Assembly (NCBI GenBank): GCA_013334325.1
Contig: JAAXXT010000009.1
Location: 1 to 64,000 of the forward strand
DNA: 64,000 bases
Source: Erysipelotrichaceae bacterium
Lineage (GTDB): Bacteria; Bacillota_I; Bacilli_A; Erysipelotrichales; Erysipelotrichaceae
Reading direction: 5' to 3'
Under the pieces are notes generated by a model. The model saw only the letters and a list, made by a program, of their open reading frames with translations, made no database searches and was not told the DNA's origin. This document shows, one piece after another, positions 9,850-49,470 of this stretch. The position numbers and the translations under genes are program-made. Position 1 is the first letter of the stretch. Each line of letters starts with the position of its first letter.

Positions 9850-11922
9850 ATGAGTAAAAATCTACGAAAAATCGCTGAATCCTTACATAAACAAGGCAAG
9901 GCTAATCCTGGACTAATGAATTATGCGATTCCTGATCTATGGTATAATGCCAAGAGTAAAGTAGAACACCTAAGCGTCAACGATGGTCATGTCTTAGTCA
10001 ATCCTTACTTATTCTATGAAGCGATAATAAACGATGTCTTTTTATCTAAAGATGACAAGGATCTTTCTCCTTATTATCTAGATCATAAAGTAGAAAAAAA
10101 GTTATCCAATGGAAATTGGATCAAGAAAAGCAACGTCTATTCGATGATGATAAGATCCTCTGGATCCTTCGATCATGATCGGACAGGACTTCTTGAAGCC
10201 AAGAATCTTCTTGGGTTAAAAGACACAGGAACCTTCATAAAGACCTTAGCTTATTTACCTACTTTAAAACGATTAGGAATCGATGTTTTATATCTACTTC
10301 CTATCGCTAAGTATTCTTTAAAGGATAAAAAAGGTGAATTAGGATCTCCTTATGGGGTCTCAAATTTCTATCAATTGGATCCAGGACTAAAAGATCCTAT
10401 GAGTCCAGACACTTCCGTTGAGGAAGAATTCAAAGCTTTCGTAGAAGCAGCCCATCTCTTAGACATGAAGGTCATCATCGACATCATCCCTAGAACCAAC
10501 TCTGTGAATTCAGATATGATCCTTGATCATCCTGATTGGTTCTATTGGATCGGCTTAGAAGACTTACCAGGATATAAGCCTCCGATGGCTGAAGGCTTAA
10601 AAGCTTGTTTACCTCCTAAAGTAGAATACTTTAAAGAACTCTTTAAATCACCTGAAGTCGAAGAACATCTTCATAAGTTCAAAAAGAATCCAAAAGAAGC
10701 TGATCCTAAAGCATGGGCCAAGCTTCTAAAGAATTTCGATCCTTCTAAAACAGAGATCTTAGATGCGGTACGTGAACAATTTAAATTGACCGTAGCACCT
10801 GCTTTCTCAGATCATATCAATGATCCTCAACCTGCTTGGAGCGATGTGACTTTCTTTAGGCTCTATCTGGATCATCCACTAAACTCTCAACCTTTCTTAA
10901 AAGAACTAGGGACTTTTGAACCTTATATCTTGTTTGATGTGGCGAAAAGCTCACTCAATCCTGGTAAGAAACCCAATAAAGAACTATGGGATATGCTTTC
11001 TGGGATCATTCCTTTCTATCAAGCGAATTTCGGAATAGATGGGGCTCGTATCGATATGGGACACGCTTTACCTGCAGAACTCATCAATATGATCATATCC
11101 AAGGCCAGAGACATCGATTCTAACTTCTGTTTCATCGCTGAAGAACTCGATCCAGTAAACGCAAAAGCTTCCATTGAGAAGGGCTACAATATGATCATCG
11201 GAAATGGTTTCATGATGGAACCTAGAGTTGATCAAGGTAGCTTCAATGAATTCGTCTATTCCGCCAAAGACTTAGCTTCTCCTGTCTTTGCGTGTGGTGA
11301 AACCCACGATACACCACGACTTGCGAATCGTAAAGGCCAAGAAGTCTTAAGTAAGATGTTGAGCATCTTCAACCTCTTTATCCCAAATACAGTACCTTTC
11401 CTAAACTCAGGTCAAGAAGTCTATGAGAAACAACTCATGAATACAGGCTTGGATACTTCTCCAGAAGATGTCTTGGCTTTACCTGAAACTGATCCTTTGT
11501 TTAAGAAGTTGGCTCTGTTTGATGCCTATGCTTTCCATTATCTACATCCTAAACGTTGGGAATTGATTGAAGTCCTAGAAGAAGCCAACACCATTCGTAA
11601 AGGCATCCTTAGTGAAATCATCGATCTTAAGAAATCATCTTATCTAGGTTTCGGAGCTCCTTGGGATACCGCAGCTGGTGTCGCCTATGAAAGCAAAGAC
11701 AAGGTCACCTTGATCATCGCTAACACAGATTGTTTCAACGATAAGCAACATCAGATCCGTTGTGCTACCTTACCTGAAAGATTCCTAAAAGAAGACGCCA
11801 TCGCTAAACAGATCTTCTCATCTGAAAAGGTTGAGCAATTACCTGTCGTTATGGATTTCGCCAATAACCTTTGGGTCCAATTCAAAAAAGGCGAAGTTAA
11901 GATCTTCGAGATTACTTTATAA
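9850..11922 (+). CDS. GH13-superfamily protein of unassigned subfamily
   Basis: A 690-residue cytoplasmic alpha-amylase-family protein with AGGAG before its ATG. Catalytic motifs are visible: GIDGARID (nucleophile Asp402, preceding Arg400), FIAEEL (acid/base Glu431) and GETHDTPR (His486-Asp487). The early barrel segment VLYLLPIAKY followed by GSPYGVSNFYQLDP is also GH13-like. Region I, normally DxxxNH, reads DIIPRTN, so the usual Asn-His pair is missing, as happens in some glucan phosphate-transferring GH13 members. A long insertion (about residues 230-330) separates region I from region II. No signal peptide. It is the only plus-strand gene in the first half of the glucan region. Reaction unknown: hydrolase, transglycosylase or GlgE-like are possible. 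Confidence 0.7.
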   Translation: MSKNLRKIAESLHKQGKANPGLMNYAIPDLWYNAKSKVEHLSVNDGHVLVNPYLFYEAIINDVFLSKDDKDLSPYYLDHKVEKKLSNGNWIKKSNVYSMMIRSSGSFDHDRTGLLEAKNLLGLKDTGTFIKTLAYLPTLKRLGIDVLYLLPIAKYSLKDKKGELGSPYGVSNFYQLDPGLKDPMSPDTSVEEEFKAFVEAAHLLDMKVIIDIIPRTNSVNSDMILDHPDWFYWIGLEDLPGYKPPMAEGLKACLPPKVEYFKELFKSPEVEEHLHKFKKNPKEADPKAWAKLLKNFDPSKTEILDAVREQFKLTVAPAFSDHINDPQPAWSDVTFFRLYLDHPLNSQPFLKELGTFEPYILFDVAKSSLNPGKKPNKELWDMLSGIIPFYQANFGIDGARIDMGHALPAELINMIISKARDIDSNFCFIAEELDPVNAKASIEKGYNMIIGNGFMMEPRVDQGSFNEFVYSAKDLASPVFACGETHDTPRLANRKGQEVLSKMLSIFNLFIPNTVPFLNSGQEVYEKQLMNTGLDTSPEDVLALPETDPLFKKLALFDAYAFHYLHPKRWELIEVLEEANTIRKGILSEIIDLKKSSYLGFGAPWDTAAGVAYESKDKVTLIIANTDCFNDKQHQIRCATLPERFLKEDAIAKQIFSSEKVEQLPVVMDFANNLWVQFKKGEVKIFEITL

Positions 11923-11925
11923 AAC

Positions 11926-11952
11926 AAACGCATGAACTTAGTTCATGCGTTT
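11926..11952. terminator. Bidirectional terminator between convergent genes
   Basis: AAACGCATGAAC / GTTCATGCGTTT, a 12-bp stem with a 3-nt loop, A-tract on one side and T-tract on the other. It ends both the GH13-like gene and the CotH-like gene. Confidence 0.88.
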
Positions 11953-13404
11953 TTATTGACACTCTGTCGTAGGCATTCTCATATTCTTTACTTTATAAGT
12001 CTGAACACAATAGTAGATTCTTACCCCATCAGGTAGACCCATAGGTTTCGCATAGGTCCTTGTCTTAGATCTCGAGGCATCCTCGTGATAGAGCTTATAG
12101 GCCATTTGATACGCTTTAAGATACTTAGGATAAGTAAATACAGTAGTGACCTGTTGATTGAGTGTTTCCAAATAAGCTGAGACAAAAGGATCATAGGTCG
12201 ATAAGATGGTCTTGGATAATAATGGTACGATATCTACTACCCCATTGGATGAATACTTATCTAGAGGTAAGATACTCTTCATTTCTTGCCCATCAGGATT
12301 CCAATCCGTTATACCTAGACCTTTATCCAAGTCTGTCGGCAGAAAATTCAGTTTTGGTGATTTCGATGAATCGAAATATAGATAATAATTATTGGCGTTG
12401 TATCTTATGTCATCAGGATTCCCAAACAGATAATTCATCGCATTGAACTTCATAAATTCATCGAGATTTACACTCTCATTAAGATAATCATATAGCGACT
12501 TATCTGATTTGGTTTGATAGGTCTTGATGAAATCTCTTAGATCAGAACCATGATTGGTGTCTTCATTGGTTTTAATGTCATAGGGAGGGAAATAATTCTG
12601 TTCTTCTTTTTTGACGCCGAAATAGAGTGGTGTCGTTCCAGTCATATTGGCAGGAACCATCTGCCAGAGCGCTTTATATAGATTGCCTGTTTGATCATCT
12701 TTAGAATATCTCTTTTGTAGAAATTCATCGTCTACAGGTTCAATCATCGTCATGACCCCTTGATCGATCTCTTTCCCATCGATGGAGAAGATCACATGAA
12801 CCAAGCTCGCTTTAGAACTTGGGATTCCCGCATCTTCATACAGTTGATACCCATAAGATTCAGTGATGTAGGGATCCGTTGTATCCTTACTCCAGACAGA
12901 GGTCCTATTCCACTTTAAGACAAGATTCTCTAATCCATAGAGATCTCTTTTTTTACGTGCCTTATAGTATTCGGAATCAACTTTTAAATCAAAGGTCTCA
13001 TCGAAAGAAACTCTCCAATGAAGAGAATTCATCGAATAACCATCATATTGGATCAAGTATCGAGAAAAGACATTCCCGTGGGTCCTTAATCCAACCTCAT
13101 TGATTCTTATCTTTTCTTTCCCATCTTCGCGATAGATAAAATTAGCGCTCACATAGGAGCTGATCCGATAGTTTCCATATTTCTCAAAGACTTTATTCAT
13201 ATCGACATCGAGTTGATCAAGGCTTTTTGCCTTTACTTCGATTACGATCTCATGATAAATAGATGGATCGAAAAAATCGAAGTAGTCTTGGCTTGCGGTT
13301 ACTCCGTTTTTAACGATGTTTTCTTTATTTAGGATGGTAGCCCCTGAAGTACAGGCACTTAGAAATAAACTAAGTGCCCATATCAGGATGAATTTTTGTT
13401 TCAT
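11953..13404 (-). CDS. CotH-kinase-domain lipoprotein
   Basis: A 483-residue lipoprotein (signal peptide with lipobox LSAC, Cys18) carrying a CotH-like atypical kinase domain. Visible family features are GLRTHGN (nucleotide-loop region), LENLVLKWN (candidate ATP-binding Lys), the MNYLFGNPDDIRYNANNYYLY catalytic-loop region and FLPTDLDKG (metal-binding Asp, DFG-like). In Bacillus CotH phosphorylates spore-coat proteins; here it is extracytoplasmic and its start overlaps the stop of a cytoplasmic GH13 gene as ATGA, in a glucan-use cluster with no sporulation gene. Its substrate may be an exported protein or a glycan. The domain call is confident; the role is not known. Confidence 0.82.
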   Translation of the reverse strand: MKQKFILIWALSLFLSACTSGATILNKENIVKNGVTASQDYFDFFDPSIYHEIVIEVKAKSLDQLDVDMNKVFEKYGNYRISSYVSANFIYREDGKEKIRINEVGLRTHGNVFSRYLIQYDGYSMNSLHWRVSFDETFDLKVDSEYYKARKKRDLYGLENLVLKWNRTSVWSKDTTDPYITESYGYQLYEDAGIPSSKASLVHVIFSIDGKEIDQGVMTMIEPVDDEFLQKRYSKDDQTGNLYKALWQMVPANMTGTTPLYFGVKKEEQNYFPPYDIKTNEDTNHGSDLRDFIKTYQTKSDKSLYDYLNESVNLDEFMKFNAMNYLFGNPDDIRYNANNYYLYFDSSKSPKLNFLPTDLDKGLGITDWNPDGQEMKSILPLDKYSSNGVVDIVPLLSKTILSTYDPFVSAYLETLNQQVTTVFTYPKYLKAYQMAYKLYHEDASRSKTRTYAKPMGLPDGVRIYYCVQTYKVKNMRMPTTECQ

Positions 13405-14684
13405 TTTTTAGGGATAGAGAAAATGATTGGGCGATTGCTTAGAGACAACACCCCATGACGGATCTCAACTTGTTCATTTGTTAATGAGTGTGTATAGATG
13501 CCTTCAGGTAAGCTCACATTAATGACGCCTGTTTCCATGCCTACATTAAAGATGCCTACTCGAATTTCTTCTTTATTCTCATATTCAAAATGAAGGATAT
13601 CTTTTTTGTGTGAAACGATTTTATAGTGATCATCTTGAGCGAATATCGGATCTTTCTTCATTTTCGCTAAAGCTTTTATCATTTTAACCATCTCAGGATC
13701 AAGCTTGGTCCAATCAACTGGATCTTTCTCAAATAATCGAGGTAAATGATCCGTACCTGTTTCTACACCGAAGTGTAGGAAAGCGATGCCTTTGGCGAAG
13801 AAACAATAACCCAACCAATTCATCGTCTTATCATAGGATTGGGTAAAGAAACGTATCCTCGCATTGTCATGATTTTCGACGTTTCTCGCTTTGACATAGT
13901 TCTTCGGATAAATGATCTCTTGTAAACGATATCGATTTCTTAGTTCTTCTAAGGGGTGTTCACCTTTGAGATAACCTAAGAATTTTTCTTGATTGTCATA
14001 GTCGTATTCTAAATCGAAGTATTTATAAACTTCAGAATCGCTTAAGCAAGTATAGCCTTCATAACGTAAGAAACTTAAGAACCAAGGATCTACGCTTTCC
14101 GCTAAGAAGGTAAGCTGTGGATTAACCCTTTTGAGTTTAGGAAAAGCAAACTGATAAAAAACTTCTGGGATCATAGGGGCGACATCAAATCTGAATCCAT
14201 CGACACCTAGATCGACCCAATACAATAACGCATCCGTTAATAATTCTATTAATTTAGGATTATTATCGAATTCAAAATCAGCGATGTCTGTCCAATCCCC
14301 GATCTTATTGGTGAGATGTCCATCTTTCCAATGATAGAATTCAGGATGTTCCTTGACCCAAGGATGATCAGGTGCAGTATGATGATAGACCACGTCCAGC
14401 ATCAATCTCATGCCTCTACTATGGGTTTCTTTTACGAGTTTCTTGAAGTCTTCTAAAGTACCTAGATCTTCTGAGATACCTTTATAGTCTCTGATCGCAT
14501 AAGGTGATCCATAGACCCCTTTTCTTTCTTTGATCCCAATTGGATGAATGGGTAAAAGATATAGGATATCTGTACCTAAGTCCTTTATACGATCAAGATC
14601 CTTGATGAGGGCATTAAACGTTCCTTCTTCAGAATAGTTTCTTACGAAGACCTGATAGATGAATTGATTACGGTATTTTTGCAT
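13401..14684 (-). CDS. Cytoplasmic alpha-amylase-family (GH13) enzyme
   Basis: A 427-residue GH13 enzyme without signal peptide. All four conserved regions are intact: DVVYHHT, GFRFDVAPM (nucleophile Asp), FLAESVD (acid/base Glu) and VENHDNAR (third Asp). The short length leaves little beyond the barrel and a small C-terminal beta domain. It follows the lipoprotein amylase by 14 nt and overlaps the CotH-like gene, so it belongs to the malE-malF-malG-amylase operon. Likely acts on imported maltodextrins; whether it hydrolyses or transglycosylates cannot be told. Confidence 0.88.
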   Translation of the reverse strand: MQKYRNQFIYQVFVRNYSEEGTFNALIKDLDRIKDLGTDILYLLPIHPIGIKERKGVYGSPYAIRDYKGISEDLGTLEDFKKLVKETHSRGMRLMLDVVYHHTAPDHPWVKEHPEFYHWKDGHLTNKIGDWTDIADFEFDNNPKLIELLTDALLYWVDLGVDGFRFDVAPMIPEVFYQFAFPKLKRVNPQLTFLAESVDPWFLSFLRYEGYTCLSDSEVYKYFDLEYDYDNQEKFLGYLKGEHPLEELRNRYRLQEIIYPKNYVKARNVENHDNARIRFFTQSYDKTMNWLGYCFFAKGIAFLHFGVETGTDHLPRLFEKDPVDWTKLDPEMVKMIKALAKMKKDPIFAQDDHYKIVSHKKDILHFEYENKEEIRVGIFNVGMETGVINVSLPEGIYTHSLTNEQVEIRHGVLSLSNRPIIFSIPKK

Positions 14685-14698
14685 GTTTTTTCTCTTTA

Positions 14699-16222
14699 CT
14701 ATTTTAACATCAACACAACGCTATTGTAGGCACCTACACTTAGTTTTCCACCACTAATTTTTGCCGGGCTTTGCTTATAATTATAGATTTGATCCGCAAT
14801 CTTGTAATCTGAAAAGTCGTACTCCAGTGTTTTTTTCGTTTCGCTCAAATTGTGGATAACAATAATGGATTCTGTCGCACTACTTGATTTGACAGCATAG
14901 ATTTCCGAACCAACATCCAAAGCTTCGACAGTCCCCTCAGTAATCAAATCATAACTGTTTTTAATGGAGATGACGCGTCGGTAATGCGATAACAGGGAAT
15001 TGCTATCTACTATCGCTTGGGCGACACCCGCTTTGTAAACCCAAACATAATCAGCCCCAGAAGGACCAATCGTTTGGCCGGTCTTATCTTTGATGTCCCA
15101 AATCATTGGAAGACGTTTATTCTCATCTTTTCCACTACCTCGTAGGCTAATTTCTTCTCCGTAATAGATAAAAGATCTACCTGGCATGAGTAAATATATA
15201 GATGCCATTAGTTTGCTTTTGTACAAATCTTTTTCTGAAAAATATGCTGCGCTTCTGCCTTGATCATGGTTCGATAAGAAAATTGCATCGATAACATCAG
15301 GGTTGGCTATTCTGGCATTATTGAGATAGCTGACAACCGTGGTAGCCAATTCACTGCCGGCAGAGTTTCGTATGCTTGAGGCGATTTTTCCCTCTGGTTG
15401 AGAAAATTGGAAATGGAATAAACTATCAATTTCAGAACCATAAAGACTCATAATGGTGTCATCTGTTGTCCAAGCTTCACCTACTATGTAAGCATCCGAT
15501 TTTATTTCCTTTATTGATTGTGATAACCAAGACAAAAATAGTCTATTTTTTTCTACATCACCTGTAAAAAATGAAGTTACTGCATCAAGTCTAAAACCTT
15601 TGACTCCTTTGTTTAACCAAAATGAAATTATTTGCTTAAGTTCATTCTTAACATTTTCACTTTCAAGATTCAAATCAGGCATTCCACTCCAAAACCGAGC
15701 TTCATAGAAGTAACCCTTACCCAAGGCAGAATAACCTGACTTCGCTTCCTTAGTAAAATTATAGTAGTCACAATATGATTCGGGGAGATCACAAGTTCCA
15801 TTCAAAATATTCTTTTTCGCTTCTACAAACCAAGGATGATTAACCGATGTATGATTCACAACCAAATCAATAATTATATCTATATCCATTGATGTAGCTC
15901 TTGATACTAATTTCGTGAAGTCATCAAGAGTTCCATATTTAGGATCAATATCATAGTAATTTGTCACATCATACTTATGATATGTAGGCGAGGGCATAAT
16001 TGGCATTAACCACAGACCACCTATCCCCATTGATTGGATATAGTTCAACTTCTCTGTGACTCCATTGATATCACCTAAACCATCTCCGTTGGTGTCATAA
16101 AAAGACCCAACGAAGATTTCGTAGTAAACATAATTCTTATCAGACTGAACGATGGTGATTTTAGAACTTGTACAACCGAAAAGCAAAAAGCAAGACAATA
16201 CTAATAAAATTTTGTTTTTCAT
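14699..16222 (-). CDS. Lipoprotein alpha-amylase (GH13)
   Basis: A 507-residue surface-anchored amylase. The true start is the ATG at 16222 (MKNKILLVLSCFLLFGC), giving a signal peptide with lipobox LFGC; the ORF-track start lies inside malG and lacks sense. The domain shows FYDTNGDGLGDINGV (calcium-site segment near the barrel start), region I DLVVNHTS, region II GFRLDAVTSF, region III IVGEAWT and region IV LSNHDQGR. It is placed 1 nt after the malG stop codon, so it should be made together with the permease and release oligosaccharides at the cell surface for that transporter. Catalytic residues are complete. Confidence 0.92.
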   Translation of the reverse strand: MKNKILLVLSCFLLFGCTSSKITIVQSDKNYVYYEIFVGSFYDTNGDGLGDINGVTEKLNYIQSMGIGGLWLMPIMPSPTYHKYDVTNYYDIDPKYGTLDDFTKLVSRATSMDIDIIIDLVVNHTSVNHPWFVEAKKNILNGTCDLPESYCDYYNFTKEAKSGYSALGKGYFYEARFWSGMPDLNLESENVKNELKQIISFWLNKGVKGFRLDAVTSFFTGDVEKNRLFLSWLSQSIKEIKSDAYIVGEAWTTDDTIMSLYGSEIDSLFHFQFSQPEGKIASSIRNSAGSELATTVVSYLNNARIANPDVIDAIFLSNHDQGRSAAYFSEKDLYKSKLMASIYLLMPGRSFIYYGEEISLRGSGKDENKRLPMIWDIKDKTGQTIGPSGADYVWVYKAGVAQAIVDSNSLLSHYRRVISIKNSYDLITEGTVEALDVGSEIYAVKSSSATESIIVIHNLSETKKTLEYDFSDYKIADQIYNYKQSPAKISGGKLSVGAYNSVVLMLK

Positions 16223-16223
16223 G

Positions 16224-17075
16224 TTAGCCTTTAGTTGAACCACCAGTGATTCCACTGACGTAGAATTTTTGCATATAAATAAAGAGAATTGATATTGGAA
16301 TAGCAATCAGAACTGCCCCAGCAGCAAATCGAGTAAAATACATGAAAATATTTTCTCTTGATAGCATCCTATATAGACCTAATGCTACTGTATAATTTTG
16401 GTAGTTATCTTTCATAATTACGCTGACAAAAATAAAATCCATCCATGGACCCATAAATGACATTAGGATCGTATAAATGACTATTGGTTTCGACAATGGA
16501 AGTGTTATTTTCCAGAAAATCGTATTTTTATTTGCACCATCGAGCATTGCAGATTCATCAATTGCCTTTGGTATCGTATCAAAGAACCCCTTTGAAATAT
16601 AATATCCCATTGCGGCTCCTCCTGAGTAAACCAACACTAATGCAAATAAAGTTTGAGTTAATCCAAAGGATTTCAATATATGATAAATAGCAATCATTGC
16701 CATAAATCCTGGAAACATACCGAGAATCAATGCTATATTCATCATTGGTTTTCTCATTTTAAATCTTAAGCGGCTCAATGCATAACTTGTCATAAGTACT
16801 AATATTGTAGATACAGCTGCGGTGCAAATCGCAACAATGAGTGTATTTAAAAACCATCTTGGATAGTTGAATAATGATGTATCAGTAAATAACTTGATAT
16901 AGTTATCAAAAGTATACGATTTTGGCAATATATAAGAAGTATATGACCCTGGTTCCTTTCTAAAGGAAATCAAAACTAGCCAAAATATAGGTAAGATCCA
17001 AACAAATGATAAAATTCCGAGAATGGAATGTATAAACCCGTTGGCTATTCTTTCCTGCGTTCTCATGTTTTTCAT
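16224..17075 (-). CDS. malG: Maltodextrin ABC permease, MalG type
   Basis: Inner-membrane subunit of 283 residues with six predicted helices. The EAA loop that docks to the ATPase reads AIDESAMLDGANKNTIFWKI at about residues 170-190, and the C-terminal GGSTKG is also MalG-like. It overlaps malF by ATGA and is followed after 1 nt by the lipoprotein amylase, fixing its role in alpha-glucan import. Ile codons here use ATA and ATT more freely than in flanking glucan genes such as 13401-14684. Confidence 0.92.
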   Translation of the reverse strand: MKNMRTQERIANGFIHSILGILSFVWILPIFWLVLISFRKEPGSYTSYILPKSYTFDNYIKLFTDTSLFNYPRWFLNTLIVAICTAAVSTILVLMTSYALSRLRFKMRKPMMNIALILGMFPGFMAMIAIYHILKSFGLTQTLFALVLVYSGGAAMGYYISKGFFDTIPKAIDESAMLDGANKNTIFWKITLPLSKPIVIYTILMSFMGPWMDFIFVSVIMKDNYQNYTVALGLYRMLSRENIFMYFTRFAAGAVLIAIPISILFIYMQKFYVSGITGGSTKG

Positions 17076-18448
17076 TGGAACTCATCCTCCTTCTTCGCTG
17101 ACGATGTTTTGTTATAGACTAAAAGTGAGAAGAAAGCACTTAGTAAGAAAATAAATATCCCAATAGTTGATGCTAGTGAATAATTCTGTTCATTTACAGT
17201 CAGTTTATACAACCAAGTAACGAGTAAATCTGTTTTACCTGCTTGATAATAATTTAAGGTTAACGGACCACCACCTGTCAAAAGGTATATAACATTAAAA
17301 TTATTGATATTTCCAATAAACTGAGTAATGAGATATGGTCCAGTCACAAATAGCATATAAGGTAATGTGATCTTCATGAATTGAACTCTAGCATTAGCAC
17401 CATCAATTTTTGCACTTTCGTATAAATCTACCGGTATATTCATCAAAATTCCCGAGGTAATGAGCATGGAATAAGGAACACCGACCCATAAATTAACTAT
17501 AATAACCGTAAATTTTGCAACATCTCCGTTAGACAAGAAAGGAAAGAAGTCTTTCACAAATCCTAGTTGTCTTAATATAACATTTAAAGTTCCTTGATCA
17601 GCAAGTAATTGAGACATCAGCAACAAGCTCACAAATTGCGGTACGGCAATCGTAATTACGAAAATAGTTCTCCAGAATTTCTTGAGTTTGATTCCTTTTT
17701 TATTAATCATCAACGCCAATATCATACCCAAAATGTAATTCAAGGCTGTTGCTAAGACTGCCCAAACAAGTGTCCAGATAAGAAGACCAAAGAAAGTAGT
17801 TGATTTGAGCGGATCATTCCATAAAGCATCTTTGAAATTATTGAACCCAACCCAAGTAAATAGATTGCCTGGAGGTTGATGATTTTTATCAAAGTTTGTA
17901 AATGCAATTAGAATCATAAAAATTAGTGGTAATATCGTAAACATAAATGTTCCAATAACAGGAATAGTTAATATCGTTACGTGGTATTTTTCATTGAGAT
18001 AGAAATCAATCTCTTGTCTAAAGTTTCTTGGTCTAATACCATTATTAATTGAAACTTGATTCGCATAACAGGTTTTTAGATTAGATAAATATACTAGGAA
18101 GAAGCTTATGACAACAAATATTGTTGCTACACCAAACAAAAGCATCAACATTGAATTATCTCCAGGATATACTACGTAGATTCCTCTTACCTCATCAAAT
18201 ATCCTAGTTTGACCAACTGTACCTAATGTTTGAAGTCCAATAATGTAATCTAGTCCTCTGATAATCATAAATAAGATAAAAGTGATTTGGAAAAAAAGAT
18301 AAGCTAAGCCCTTGATAATTTGTCCTCTTGTAAACATACCAAAACCCATTATGAGGCCTGATAATCTTGTAGATAGATCACCCTTTATAAAACACATTAT
18401 GTATTTATTGAACAAATCATGAATTGAAGTTAATGCTTTTTTAACCAT
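17072..18448 (-). CDS. malF: Maltodextrin ABC permease, MalF type
   Basis: A 458-residue permease. Like MalF of Gram-positives it has an extended N-terminus with extra helices (residues about 40-130) before the core permease domain. The EAA loop DLYESAKIDGANARVQFMKI is present. It pairs with MalG and uses the SBP encoded just upstream; the ATPase is probably the MsmK-type protein at 19933-21024. The ribosome binding site is weak and it is separated from malE by a hairpin terminator, so expression should be lower than that of malE. Confidence 0.92.
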   Translation of the reverse strand: MVKKALTSIHDLFNKYIMCFIKGDLSTRLSGLIMGFGMFTRGQIIKGLAYLFFQITFILFMIIRGLDYIIGLQTLGTVGQTRIFDEVRGIYVVYPGDNSMLMLLFGVATIFVVISFFLVYLSNLKTCYANQVSINNGIRPRNFRQEIDFYLNEKYHVTILTIPVIGTFMFTILPLIFMILIAFTNFDKNHQPPGNLFTWVGFNNFKDALWNDPLKSTTFFGLLIWTLVWAVLATALNYILGMILALMINKKGIKLKKFWRTIFVITIAVPQFVSLLLMSQLLADQGTLNVILRQLGFVKDFFPFLSNGDVAKFTVIIVNLWVGVPYSMLITSGILMNIPVDLYESAKIDGANARVQFMKITLPYMLFVTGPYLITQFIGNINNFNVIYLLTGGGPLTLNYYQAGKTDLLVTWLYKLTVNEQNYSLASTIGIFIFLLSAFFSLLVYNKTSSAKKEDEFQ

Positions 18449-18480
18449 GTTTTTCTCGCTTTTCTCACTTATTTAAAAAT

Positions 18481-18506
18481 AAGGGCAATATTTTAGTATT
18501 GCCCTT
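18481..18506 (-). terminator. Intercistronic terminator/attenuator malE-malF
   Basis: AAGGGCAATA / TATTGCCCTT, a 10-bp stem with a 6-nt loop, followed by ATTTTTAAA on the minus strand. A partial terminator here would favour the binding protein over the permeases, as in other sugar ABC operons. Confidence 0.75.
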
Positions 18507-18529
18507 TTTGTTTACTTCTTAATCTACGA

Positions 18530-19711
18530 TTAGGAGCCGTTAGCCTGCAATACCCAAGCATCAAGCATCTCTTGAATTGTCTTGGAATAGTCTTTTGTTT
18601 CCATTGCTAAGCCGAAAGCTTCTCCAGGTCCCCAATAAGAATCAGGTACGCTGTTCTGACTAATTGCAAATGCAGCTTGAGCAGCTAAAGCAGCCAAAGC
18701 GACATCAGCAACAACTGTAGTACTTGTCGCAGCTTTAATATTACTTGGACCAAGTTTACGAGTTTCGAAGCGTTTAATCTGATTGGCTTCATTGGTCAAG
18801 AATTCTGCTAGAGCCATAGCTTCTTCAGGGAATTTAGTAAGCGCATTAACGCCCATCAATTTATAACCCGCAAAGCTTCCCATTTGTGTGGAAGTTGTTC
18901 CCAACATGTATGAAGGCAACTTTGTAGCGGCATAATTAGCACCTAAAACTGTAGAAATATCTGAAGCATTCCATGTTCCAGAAACACCAGCAGCAATTGT
19001 TGTACCAATGTTACCTTTTAGGTAAGCATCATCACCAGTAACGAATGCAGAGTTAGCAGTAAAGGATTTAATAAATTCACCGACCTTTAAACCAGTAGCA
19101 TTATTGAAGTCGATAACTTTCTTCCCATCAACGGTTTTGAAAGTGTTTCCAGCCCCAATAAAGAATGAAGCAATATACCAACCATTAGATACATCCATGA
19201 ATACTTTCTTGTTTGCTGTAGCAGCTTTTGTCAACATAGTATCGAGGGATTTCACATCGTCAGCACTGAAAACGCTCTTATCATAATACAAGAAATAACC
19301 ATTGTCAGCAGTGACTGGATAAGCATATAGCTTTCCACCAACAGTTGAAACATCAATAGAACCTGCGACATTGGCAGCGATAATAGCAGCCTTATTCAAG
19401 GTTACTTCATAAAGAGCCCCTGCATCTACTAAGCCAGAAATTTGATCATTCGGGAAAGAAAATACATCAGCGGCAGCTTCTGGATCTTCCAAATATTTTG
19501 TTTTGGCATCCGGTTCGCCTACAACACCCAAAGTAATAGTGTAGATCTTATCTGTGTTAGCAGCGATAAAAGCATCTACCATTTCTTGAAGCATTACTTG
19601 ATCTTCTTGAGAGCCCCAAACCTTCAAAGTAACTTCTGTTTTCTTCTTTGTACAAGCCGACAAAGAAGCAACTAACAACAATGCAGAGAGCAGTAAAATA
19701 ATCTTCTTCAT
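18530..19711 (-). CDS. malE: Maltose/maltodextrin-binding lipoprotein
   Basis: A 393-residue family-1 solute-binding lipoprotein. The start is the ATG at 19711 (MKKIILLLSALLL), preceded by AGGAGG; the longer ORF-track start reads through the promoter region. The lipobox is LSAC. The mature protein shows EVTLKVWGSQEDQ at the N-terminus, KLYAYPVTADNGYFLYYDKS and GSFAGYKLMGVNALTKFPEEAM, features of MalE-like proteins. First gene of the malEFG-amylase-GH13-cotH unit. Exact oligosaccharide specificity is inferred from neighbours. Confidence 0.92.
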   Translation of the reverse strand: MKKIILLLSALLLVASLSACTKKKTEVTLKVWGSQEDQVMLQEMVDAFIAANTDKIYTITLGVVGEPDAKTKYLEDPEAAADVFSFPNDQISGLVDAGALYEVTLNKAAIIAANVAGSIDVSTVGGKLYAYPVTADNGYFLYYDKSVFSADDVKSLDTMLTKAATANKKVFMDVSNGWYIASFFIGAGNTFKTVDGKKVIDFNNATGLKVGEFIKSFTANSAFVTGDDAYLKGNIGTTIAAGVSGTWNASDISTVLGANYAATKLPSYMLGTTSTQMGSFAGYKLMGVNALTKFPEEAMALAEFLTNEANQIKRFETRKLGPSNIKAATSTTVVADVALAALAAQAAFAISQNSVPDSYWGPGEAFGLAMETKDYSKTIQEMLDAWVLQANGS

Positions 19712-19734
19712 TTCATTCCTCCTATGGTATCCAC

Positions 19735-19754
19735 CAATGTAAGTGGTTACATTG
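19735..19754. promoter_or_regulatory. Perfect inverted repeat, candidate operator of malE
   Basis: CAATGTAA, 4 nt, TTACATTG: perfect 8-nt arms immediately downstream of the malE -10 box, covering the likely transcription start. This is where a repressor operator would lie. It has no T-tract. The cognate regulator is not known; the PucR-type protein at 21091 is the only nearby DNA-binding candidate. Confidence 0.55.
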
Positions 19755-19757
19755 ATA

Positions 19758-19766
19758 ATTATACCA
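19758..19766 (-). promoter_or_regulatory. Extended -10 promoter of malE
   Basis: TGGTATAAT on the minus strand: perfect TATAAT with an extended -10 TG. No recognisable -35 at 16-18 nt, consistent with an extended -10 promoter. Confidence 0.6.
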
Positions 19767-19834
19767 CCCATATTTTGCATTTTCCACTCATATGTTCACA
19801 AATATTTCACTTTTGGTCGTGAACTAATTATTCT

Positions 19835-19932: not shown

Positions 19933-21024
19933 TTAGATAATGGCTTTGGTGGTTTCTTTATCGAAGAAATGTAGTTTCGTTACATCCATGGCCAATTTAA
20001 TGGTGTCATGAGCGTGTACGTCAACTCTAGCGGATACCTTCGCCAAGATAGGTTGATTACCGAAACGTCCATGAAGGATGAATTCATGACCCAAAAGTTC
20101 AGAGACTTCAATATTGAAATCAAATGGTGTATCTGGGAATGTTTCTGCGACGATGCCTTCATAATGGATGTCTTCAGGACGGATACCCAATACGAGTTCT
20201 TTGCCTTCTAGATCTTTTAGGGCTTCACTGAACATCTTAGGAACCATAAATGATTTATTGTCGACTTCGAAACGGCCTTTAGCGTATTTTCCAGTGATGA
20301 AGTTCATCGCAGGAGCACCAATGAAGTTCGCAACGAACATATTGTTTGGATGATTATAGATTTCTTTTGGTGTACCGATCTGTTGGATATAACCGTCTTT
20401 CATAACGACGATTCTGGTAGCCATGGTCATAGCTTCAGTTTGGTCATGGGTGACATAGATGGTAGTAGCATTCAGACGTTCATGAAGTTTAATGATTTCA
20501 GATCTCATTTGAACACGTAGCTTAGCATCTAGATTGGACAAAGGTTCATCCATCAAGAATACCTGCGCATTACGTACGATGGCTCTTCCCAAGGCAACAC
20601 GTTGACGTTGTCCACCAGACAACGCTTTAGGTTTACGATCCAAGAAGTTTTCGATTTCTAGAATACGTGCAGCTTCTTTAACGCGTTCGTCGATCTCATG
20701 TTTAGGAAGTTTCTTTAAACGAAGACCGAAAGCCATGTTTTCATAAACAGTCATGTGTGGATACAAAGCGTAGGATTGGAATACCATCGCGATGTCTCTG
20801 TCTTTAGGAGCGGTCAAATTGGAGAACTTATCATTGATGAACAATTCACCTGATGAGATTTCTTCTAGACCGGCGATCATTCTTAAAGTCGTGGATTTAC
20901 CACAGCCTGAAGGACCGACCAAGACGATGAATTCTTTGTCTTTGATGTCGAGATTGAAATCGAAGACGGCTTGGACATTATTGTCGTAGATTTTGTTGAT
21001 GCCTTTTAATTGTAGTGTTGCCAT
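19933..21024 (-). CDS. msmK: Sugar ABC transporter ATPase, MsmK/MalK type
   Basis: A 363-residue ATPase energising oligosaccharide importers. Walker [11 protein letters not shown]-loop [14 protein letters not shown], signature LSGGQRQRV, Walker [14 protein letters not shown] and switch His in THDQTEA are all present, followed by the C-terminal TOBE regulatory region (IRPEDIHYE). It forms its own short unit between the malE promoter region and the pucR-like gene. MsmK-type ATPases commonly serve several sugar transporters, which would fit the orphan SBPs in this window. Confidence 0.95.
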
Positions 21025-49250: not shown

Positions 49251-49279
49251 TTGAATCTTAAGATGAGATGACTTATAAT
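49251..49279 (+). promoter_or_regulatory. Promoter of cobalamin riboswitch operon
   Basis: TTGAAT, 17 nt, TATAAT; transcription would begin at about 49285, right at the base of the riboswitch P1 stem. Confidence 0.75.
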
Positions 49280-49283
49280 GAGA

Positions 49284-49443
49284 TTGCGAAATACGGTGCT
49301 TTTTAAAAGCTCAAAAGGGAATTCGATTAAACGAAGCTGTCCCAGCAACTGTAGGTCCGGACAAGAGGAGACATACCACTGTGAAAACGGGAAGGTTCCT
49401 CAAGGATGAAAGACCAGCCAGTAGACCTGCCCTATATCCGCAA
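49284..49443 (+). promoter_or_regulatory. Cobalamin riboswitch
   Basis: The aptamer is recognised from the AAAGGGAA and CCAGCAACTGT segments, ACCACTG, CGGGAAGG and the B12 box GCCAGTAGACCTGCC (49417-49431). TTGCG at 49284-49288 pairs with CGCAA at 49439-49443 as P1. It precedes four B12-related genes and two hairpins ending in T-runs, so adenosylcobalamin binding should terminate transcription. Confidence 0.95.
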
Positions 49444-49470
49444 CGCTTTTATCTTCTGGGAAAAAGATAA

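Follow-up and report, generated by a model that had tools for sequence, protein, structure and literature searches.

What does a CotH-type lipoprotein do at the end of a maltodextrin operon, in a bacterium with no sign of spore formation, and do its neighbours bear on that task? The stretch of DNA analysed here (64,000 nucleotides of contig JAAXXT010000009.1, hereafter the window) comes from an Erysipelotrichaceae bacterium whose genome (1.95 Mb, 98.8% complete) encodes three CotH proteins. A first-pass annotation had described the gene as a lipobox-bearing CotH kinase that overlaps a cytoplasmic GH13 gene and follows malEFG and an amylase gene, in a setting without sporulation genes.

The cotH gene and its operon

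The features surrounding cotH are as follows.

9850..11922, plus strand: convergent GH13-like gene, 690 aa, bordering the variable slot that holds cotH
11926..11952, minus strand: terminator-like stem-loop (12-bp stem, T-rich tail) at the operon end, just past the CotH stop
11953..13404, minus strand: CotH-family lipoprotein with predicted protein-kinase-like fold, 483 aa; D331, N339, D358; lipobox LSAC
13401..14684, minus strand: cytoplasmic GH13 (alpha-amylase family), 427 aa; ATGA overlap with cotH
14699..16306, minus strand: GH13 lipoprotein, lipobox LFGC; likely start near 16225, MKNKILLVLSCFLLFGC
16224..17075, minus strand: malG-type permease
17072..18448, minus strand: malF-type permease
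18530..19780, minus strand: malE-type solute-binding lipoprotein; likely start near 19711
19933..21024, minus strand: malK-type ATPase; in sister genomes GH13-cotH comes directly after it

The Pfam CotH profile (PF08757) covers residues 138-425 of the protein with an E-value of 5.6e-21 and 75.8 bits, against a curated cut-off of 23.8, and a search of the whole genome recovers the same protein again; an NCBIfam search assigned no family to it. Together with a structural match to the B. cereus CotH kinase described below, the Pfam score confirms the protein as a genuine member of the CotH family, as first annotated. Its N-terminus, MKQKFILIWALSLFLSAC, carries the reported lipobox (LSAC) behind a hydrophobic signal segment, and LSAC is also found in the full-length orthologues; the protein is therefore predicted to lie at the cell surface. 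Comparison with the sister genome gave a dN/dS of 0.11 over 216 codons, indicating purifying selection.

The reading of the locus as an operon also stands; malEFG, the amylase gene and the GH13 gene lie upstream of cotH on the same strand. A promoter-like sequence (TGGAAA-17-TATAAT) occupies 19786-19758 in the malE start region. The GH13 stop and the cotH start share the sequence ATGA at 13401-13404, an overlap of 4 bp that agrees with the earlier description, and cotH is probably translationally coupled to the GH13 gene, for which inspection by eye revealed no signal peptide. cotH is the last cistron, since its stop codon is followed by the stem-loop and then by a convergent GH13-like gene.

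A spore-coat role for this protein was ruled out: the Spo0A_C profile found no match in the host genome, whereas a B. subtilis control was positive, and since the genome lacks Spo0A, cotH cannot be counted as a spore-coat gene. This result bears out the non-sporulating setting noted in the first pass. Elsewhere in the window, a cobalamin riboswitch was detected at 49277-49449 (86.4 bits).

Fold and active-site residues

The structure of the protein was modelled from an alignment of 52 sequences, which also served as the profile for a search of the PDB. The resulting AlphaFold model (pLDDT 90, pTM 0.89) matched two entries of the B. cereus CotH kinase best, 5jda (E-value 1.8e-15; TM relative to the target 0.75, probability 1.00) and 5jd9 (2.7e-15), and the next match after the CotH entries was a weak one to HipA (0.0097). 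The 52-sequence profile aligned with 5jd9 at 3.6e-34; PDB searches with a single sequence or with 5 sequences did not find CotH, and an earlier model based on 5 sequences was poor (pLDDT 36) and was left out. We conclude that the modelled protein has the CotH kinase fold.

In the alignment, D331 and D358 correspond to D228 and D251 of B. subtilis CotH, for which the substitutions D228Q and D251A are inactivating (PMC7821199). The two aspartates are 23 residues apart in both 5jd9 and the B. subtilis protein and 27 apart in the window protein, the difference being due to small insertions. CotH kinases retain an asparagine equivalent to N171 of PKA (PMC12189002), and N339 fits this position. Across the subfamily to which the protein belongs, R107, E222, D331 and N339 are invariant (43/43 members), while D358 and K244 are each kept in 42 of the 43.

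Two other positions have changed. The canonical Lys-Lys pair of the N-lobe strand (KKSY), whose catalytic role is not established in the sources used, aligns with S127-L128, and the lysines are not conserved across the subfamily. The tryptophan that stacks on adenine in B. cereus (W245) is replaced by Thr357; most of the subfamily has Tyr or Phe at this position, and Thr is found in the orthologues of the window's genus and in one further genome (G342). The tryptophan is present in all nine other CotH proteins aligned, although it is a trait of the studied enzyme and not of the Pfam family as such. With the Asp/Asn/Asp set retained and both the Lys-Lys pair and the stacking tryptophan lost, the catalytic machinery has been kept and the nucleotide pocket altered. 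Loss of the catalytic lysine or aspartate had been named at the outset as grounds for abandoning the kinase proposal; D331 and D358 are both in place, but the canonical lysines are gone and Trp has become Thr. K244 and R107 are candidate phosphate contacts, and R107, E222 and K244 could stand in for the missing lysines.

Distribution of the subfamily and linkage to sugar genes

Of 395 genomes sampled from the class, 59 carry the separate CotH subfamily to which the window protein belongs, and most of these lie outside the window's own family. Within that family (273 genomes, 60 genera) it occurs in only 4 genomes, all of the same genus, a sparse distribution that fits horizontal gain or loss elsewhere; a scan of genome contigs for close relatives returned the sister genome only. 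In the tree, the window clade forms its own long branch. A constraint joining it with the clade of genome G185 and genus g203 was not rejected (AU p 0.51), so that a single old link and multiple gains are both possible. As a side observation, loci of family f22 from several genera (L110, L111, L114 and L118) carry tandem pairs of subfamily CotH genes, one partner often lacking a lipobox.

Within the genus, the order malK-GH13-cotH and the 4-bp ATGA overlap are kept in G002 and G006, at CotH identities of 63% and 56%. In G001, one contig ends within GH13 and another starts within cotH, consistent with the same order, while in G004 and G005 malK-GH13 is present but CotH is missing. The block of malEFG and amylase lipoprotein (14699-19780) lies between malK and GH13 in the window genome only; in the sister genomes malK adjoins GH13, and another GH13 lipoprotein (524-527 aa) lies upstream. 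The link of CotH is therefore primarily to malK-GH13. The slot between the convergent GH13 genes (11922-13404 in the window; L040, L041, L042, L156 and L157) varies within the genus. CotH fills it alone, with a PIN7 gene or with two other ORFs; in G005 the slot is empty, and in G004 an unrelated ORF of 440 aa takes the place of CotH.

Outside the genus, G185 has the order MalE-MalF-MalG-GH13-GH77-CotH-GH13, in which the last GH13 is a homologue of that in the window. In g203, CotH is part of an operon with MalF, MalG and a solute-binding protein; it is the terminal gene in four genomes and the first in G342. An orthologous solute-binding protein (at least 75% identity) is found in 6 of 7 g203 genomes with CotH and in 0 of 4 without (Fisher p 0.015, calculated by hand and ignoring relatedness). 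G514 has retained CotH, and the adjoining transporter is gone. The g203 sugar-ABC operon also encodes, together with CotH, a lipoprotein that matches the OB-fold profile PF01336 (L130:6027-6770 and L125:3899-5362).

These linkages are not general. A sugar gene lies within three genes of subfamily CotH in 3 of 36 sampled genera, which is not clearly above the local background (binomial P about 0.19), and VTC or DUF4956 neighbours occur in seven genera. Among the 395 genomes of the class, 118 carry the same GH13, yet GH13-CotH adjacency is confined to the window's genus and G185, with the two genes about 6 kb apart in G409; this limited adjacency rules out a broad GH13-CotH linkage. The conserved linkage on which the original proposal leaned thus survives in part, being kept in the genus wherever CotH exists and recurring in two other lineages, but absent from 33 of the 36 genera. 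A functional link of the window CotH to sugar uptake is only modestly supported.

Possible roles and relation to known systems

The reading we favour, with a probability of roughly 0.45, is that the window protein is a divergent extracytoplasmic phosphotransferase of the CotH type, probably active, that was recruited to an alpha-glucan operon. As the last, probably translationally coupled cistron, the lipid-anchored CotH would be produced along with the proteins of alpha-glucan uptake. It would most likely still be a metal-dependent phosphotransferase and, while maltodextrins are being used, would act on a surface acceptor on the outer side of the membrane. Candidate acceptors would include a glycan, other surface proteins and the lipoproteins of the operon itself. 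Whereas the lipobox, operon position, family, fold, purifying selection and catalytic Asp/Asn/Asp set are established here, the surface location, catalytic activity and functional tie to glucan uptake are inferred. Phosphorylation of surface proteins, as first suggested, is possible. The companion idea that the protein helps attach the cell to starch drew no support from any finding of the analysis.

The main rival explanation, which we consider plausible, if on the whole doubtful, is that cotH was gained horizontally into the variable slot between the convergent GH13 genes and rides at the operon end, being co-transcribed by position and serving the general surface or matrix function of CotH proteins, unrelated to sugar uptake. 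The restriction of the subfamily to 4 genomes of one genus within the family, the changing content of the slot, the sugar linkage in just three genera and the placement of the f14 relatives in VTC-DUF4956-CotH modules all fit such a history. However, the overlap with GH13 has been retained down to 56% CotH identity, the mal operon of G185 has CotH adjoining a homologue of the same GH13, and the link could be old, given that the grouping with the G185/g203 clade was not rejected.

It is unlikely, in our estimate, that the protein is a pseudokinase or ligand-binding lipoprotein, one whose altered pocket has lost phosphate transfer and whose fold binds a surface partner or glycan. The unconserved lysines and the Thr in place of Trp in the genus orthologues and G342 agree with this explanation, as does an extracytoplasmic location, for we know of no extracellular source of ATP that a lipoprotein on a Gram-positive-type cell could draw on and, to our knowledge, of no extracellular phosphate donor. 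Yet an invariant D331/N339 pair and a D358 kept in all but one member would be an improbable pattern for a lost active site, and the nearly invariant R107, E222 and K244 could replace the lysines. Bolder still, and in our view quite improbable, is an extracellular subfamily with a rebuilt pocket that would work within an alpha-glucan uptake operon and phosphorylate surface proteins or the glucan from a donor other than ordinary cytosolic ATP; polyphosphate is offered as an example since the host genome also carries VTC-type polymerase genes.

Compared with the Bacillus proteins (B. cereus 5jd9/5jda; B. subtilis CotH, which acts on CotB and CotG), the window CotH has the fold, Pfam family and catalytic Asp/Asn/Asp in common. 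It differs in being a lipoprotein in a genome without Spo0A, in an identity of about 17% in the structural alignment and in the loss of the KK lysines and stacking Trp, and no CotB or CotG neighbour was seen. CotH outside spores is already known, including a CotH-VTC(polyphosphate polymerase)-DUF4956(-DUF4832) module beside Gram-positive Pel clusters (PMC7112168). Such modules likewise place CotH in non-sporulating bacteria, and the f14 members of the window subfamily sit in one. The host genome has two, on C49 (with Pel genes) and C1, but the window CotH is of a different subfamily, and no VTC or DUF4956 neighbour lies beside it or its orthologues. A similarity of CotH to Fam20C has been reported (PMC12189002), and secreted Fam20-type kinases, like CotH, act outside the cytosol. 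The best structure matches listed for our model included none to Fam20, and the lysine and nucleotide contacts of the two are not comparable here.

A search of non-subscription literature found no paper in which CotH is described alongside genes for an amylase and an ABC transporter. What is new is a separate CotH subfamily whose pocket residues are altered and which turns up repeatedly, if not generally, in operons for sugar uptake. CotH proteins are widespread beyond spore formers, where their acceptors and donor are a general question; one tied to a defined catabolic operon supplies an inducing condition and a few candidate acceptors, namely the operon's own lipoproteins, and a subfamily-wide loss of canonical pocket residues, the catalytic Asp being kept, is directly testable. 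In the host's C49 module (L044, genome G000), PelF/PelG-like genes are followed by CotH, VTC, DUF4956 and DUF4832, an arrangement as in PMC7112168.
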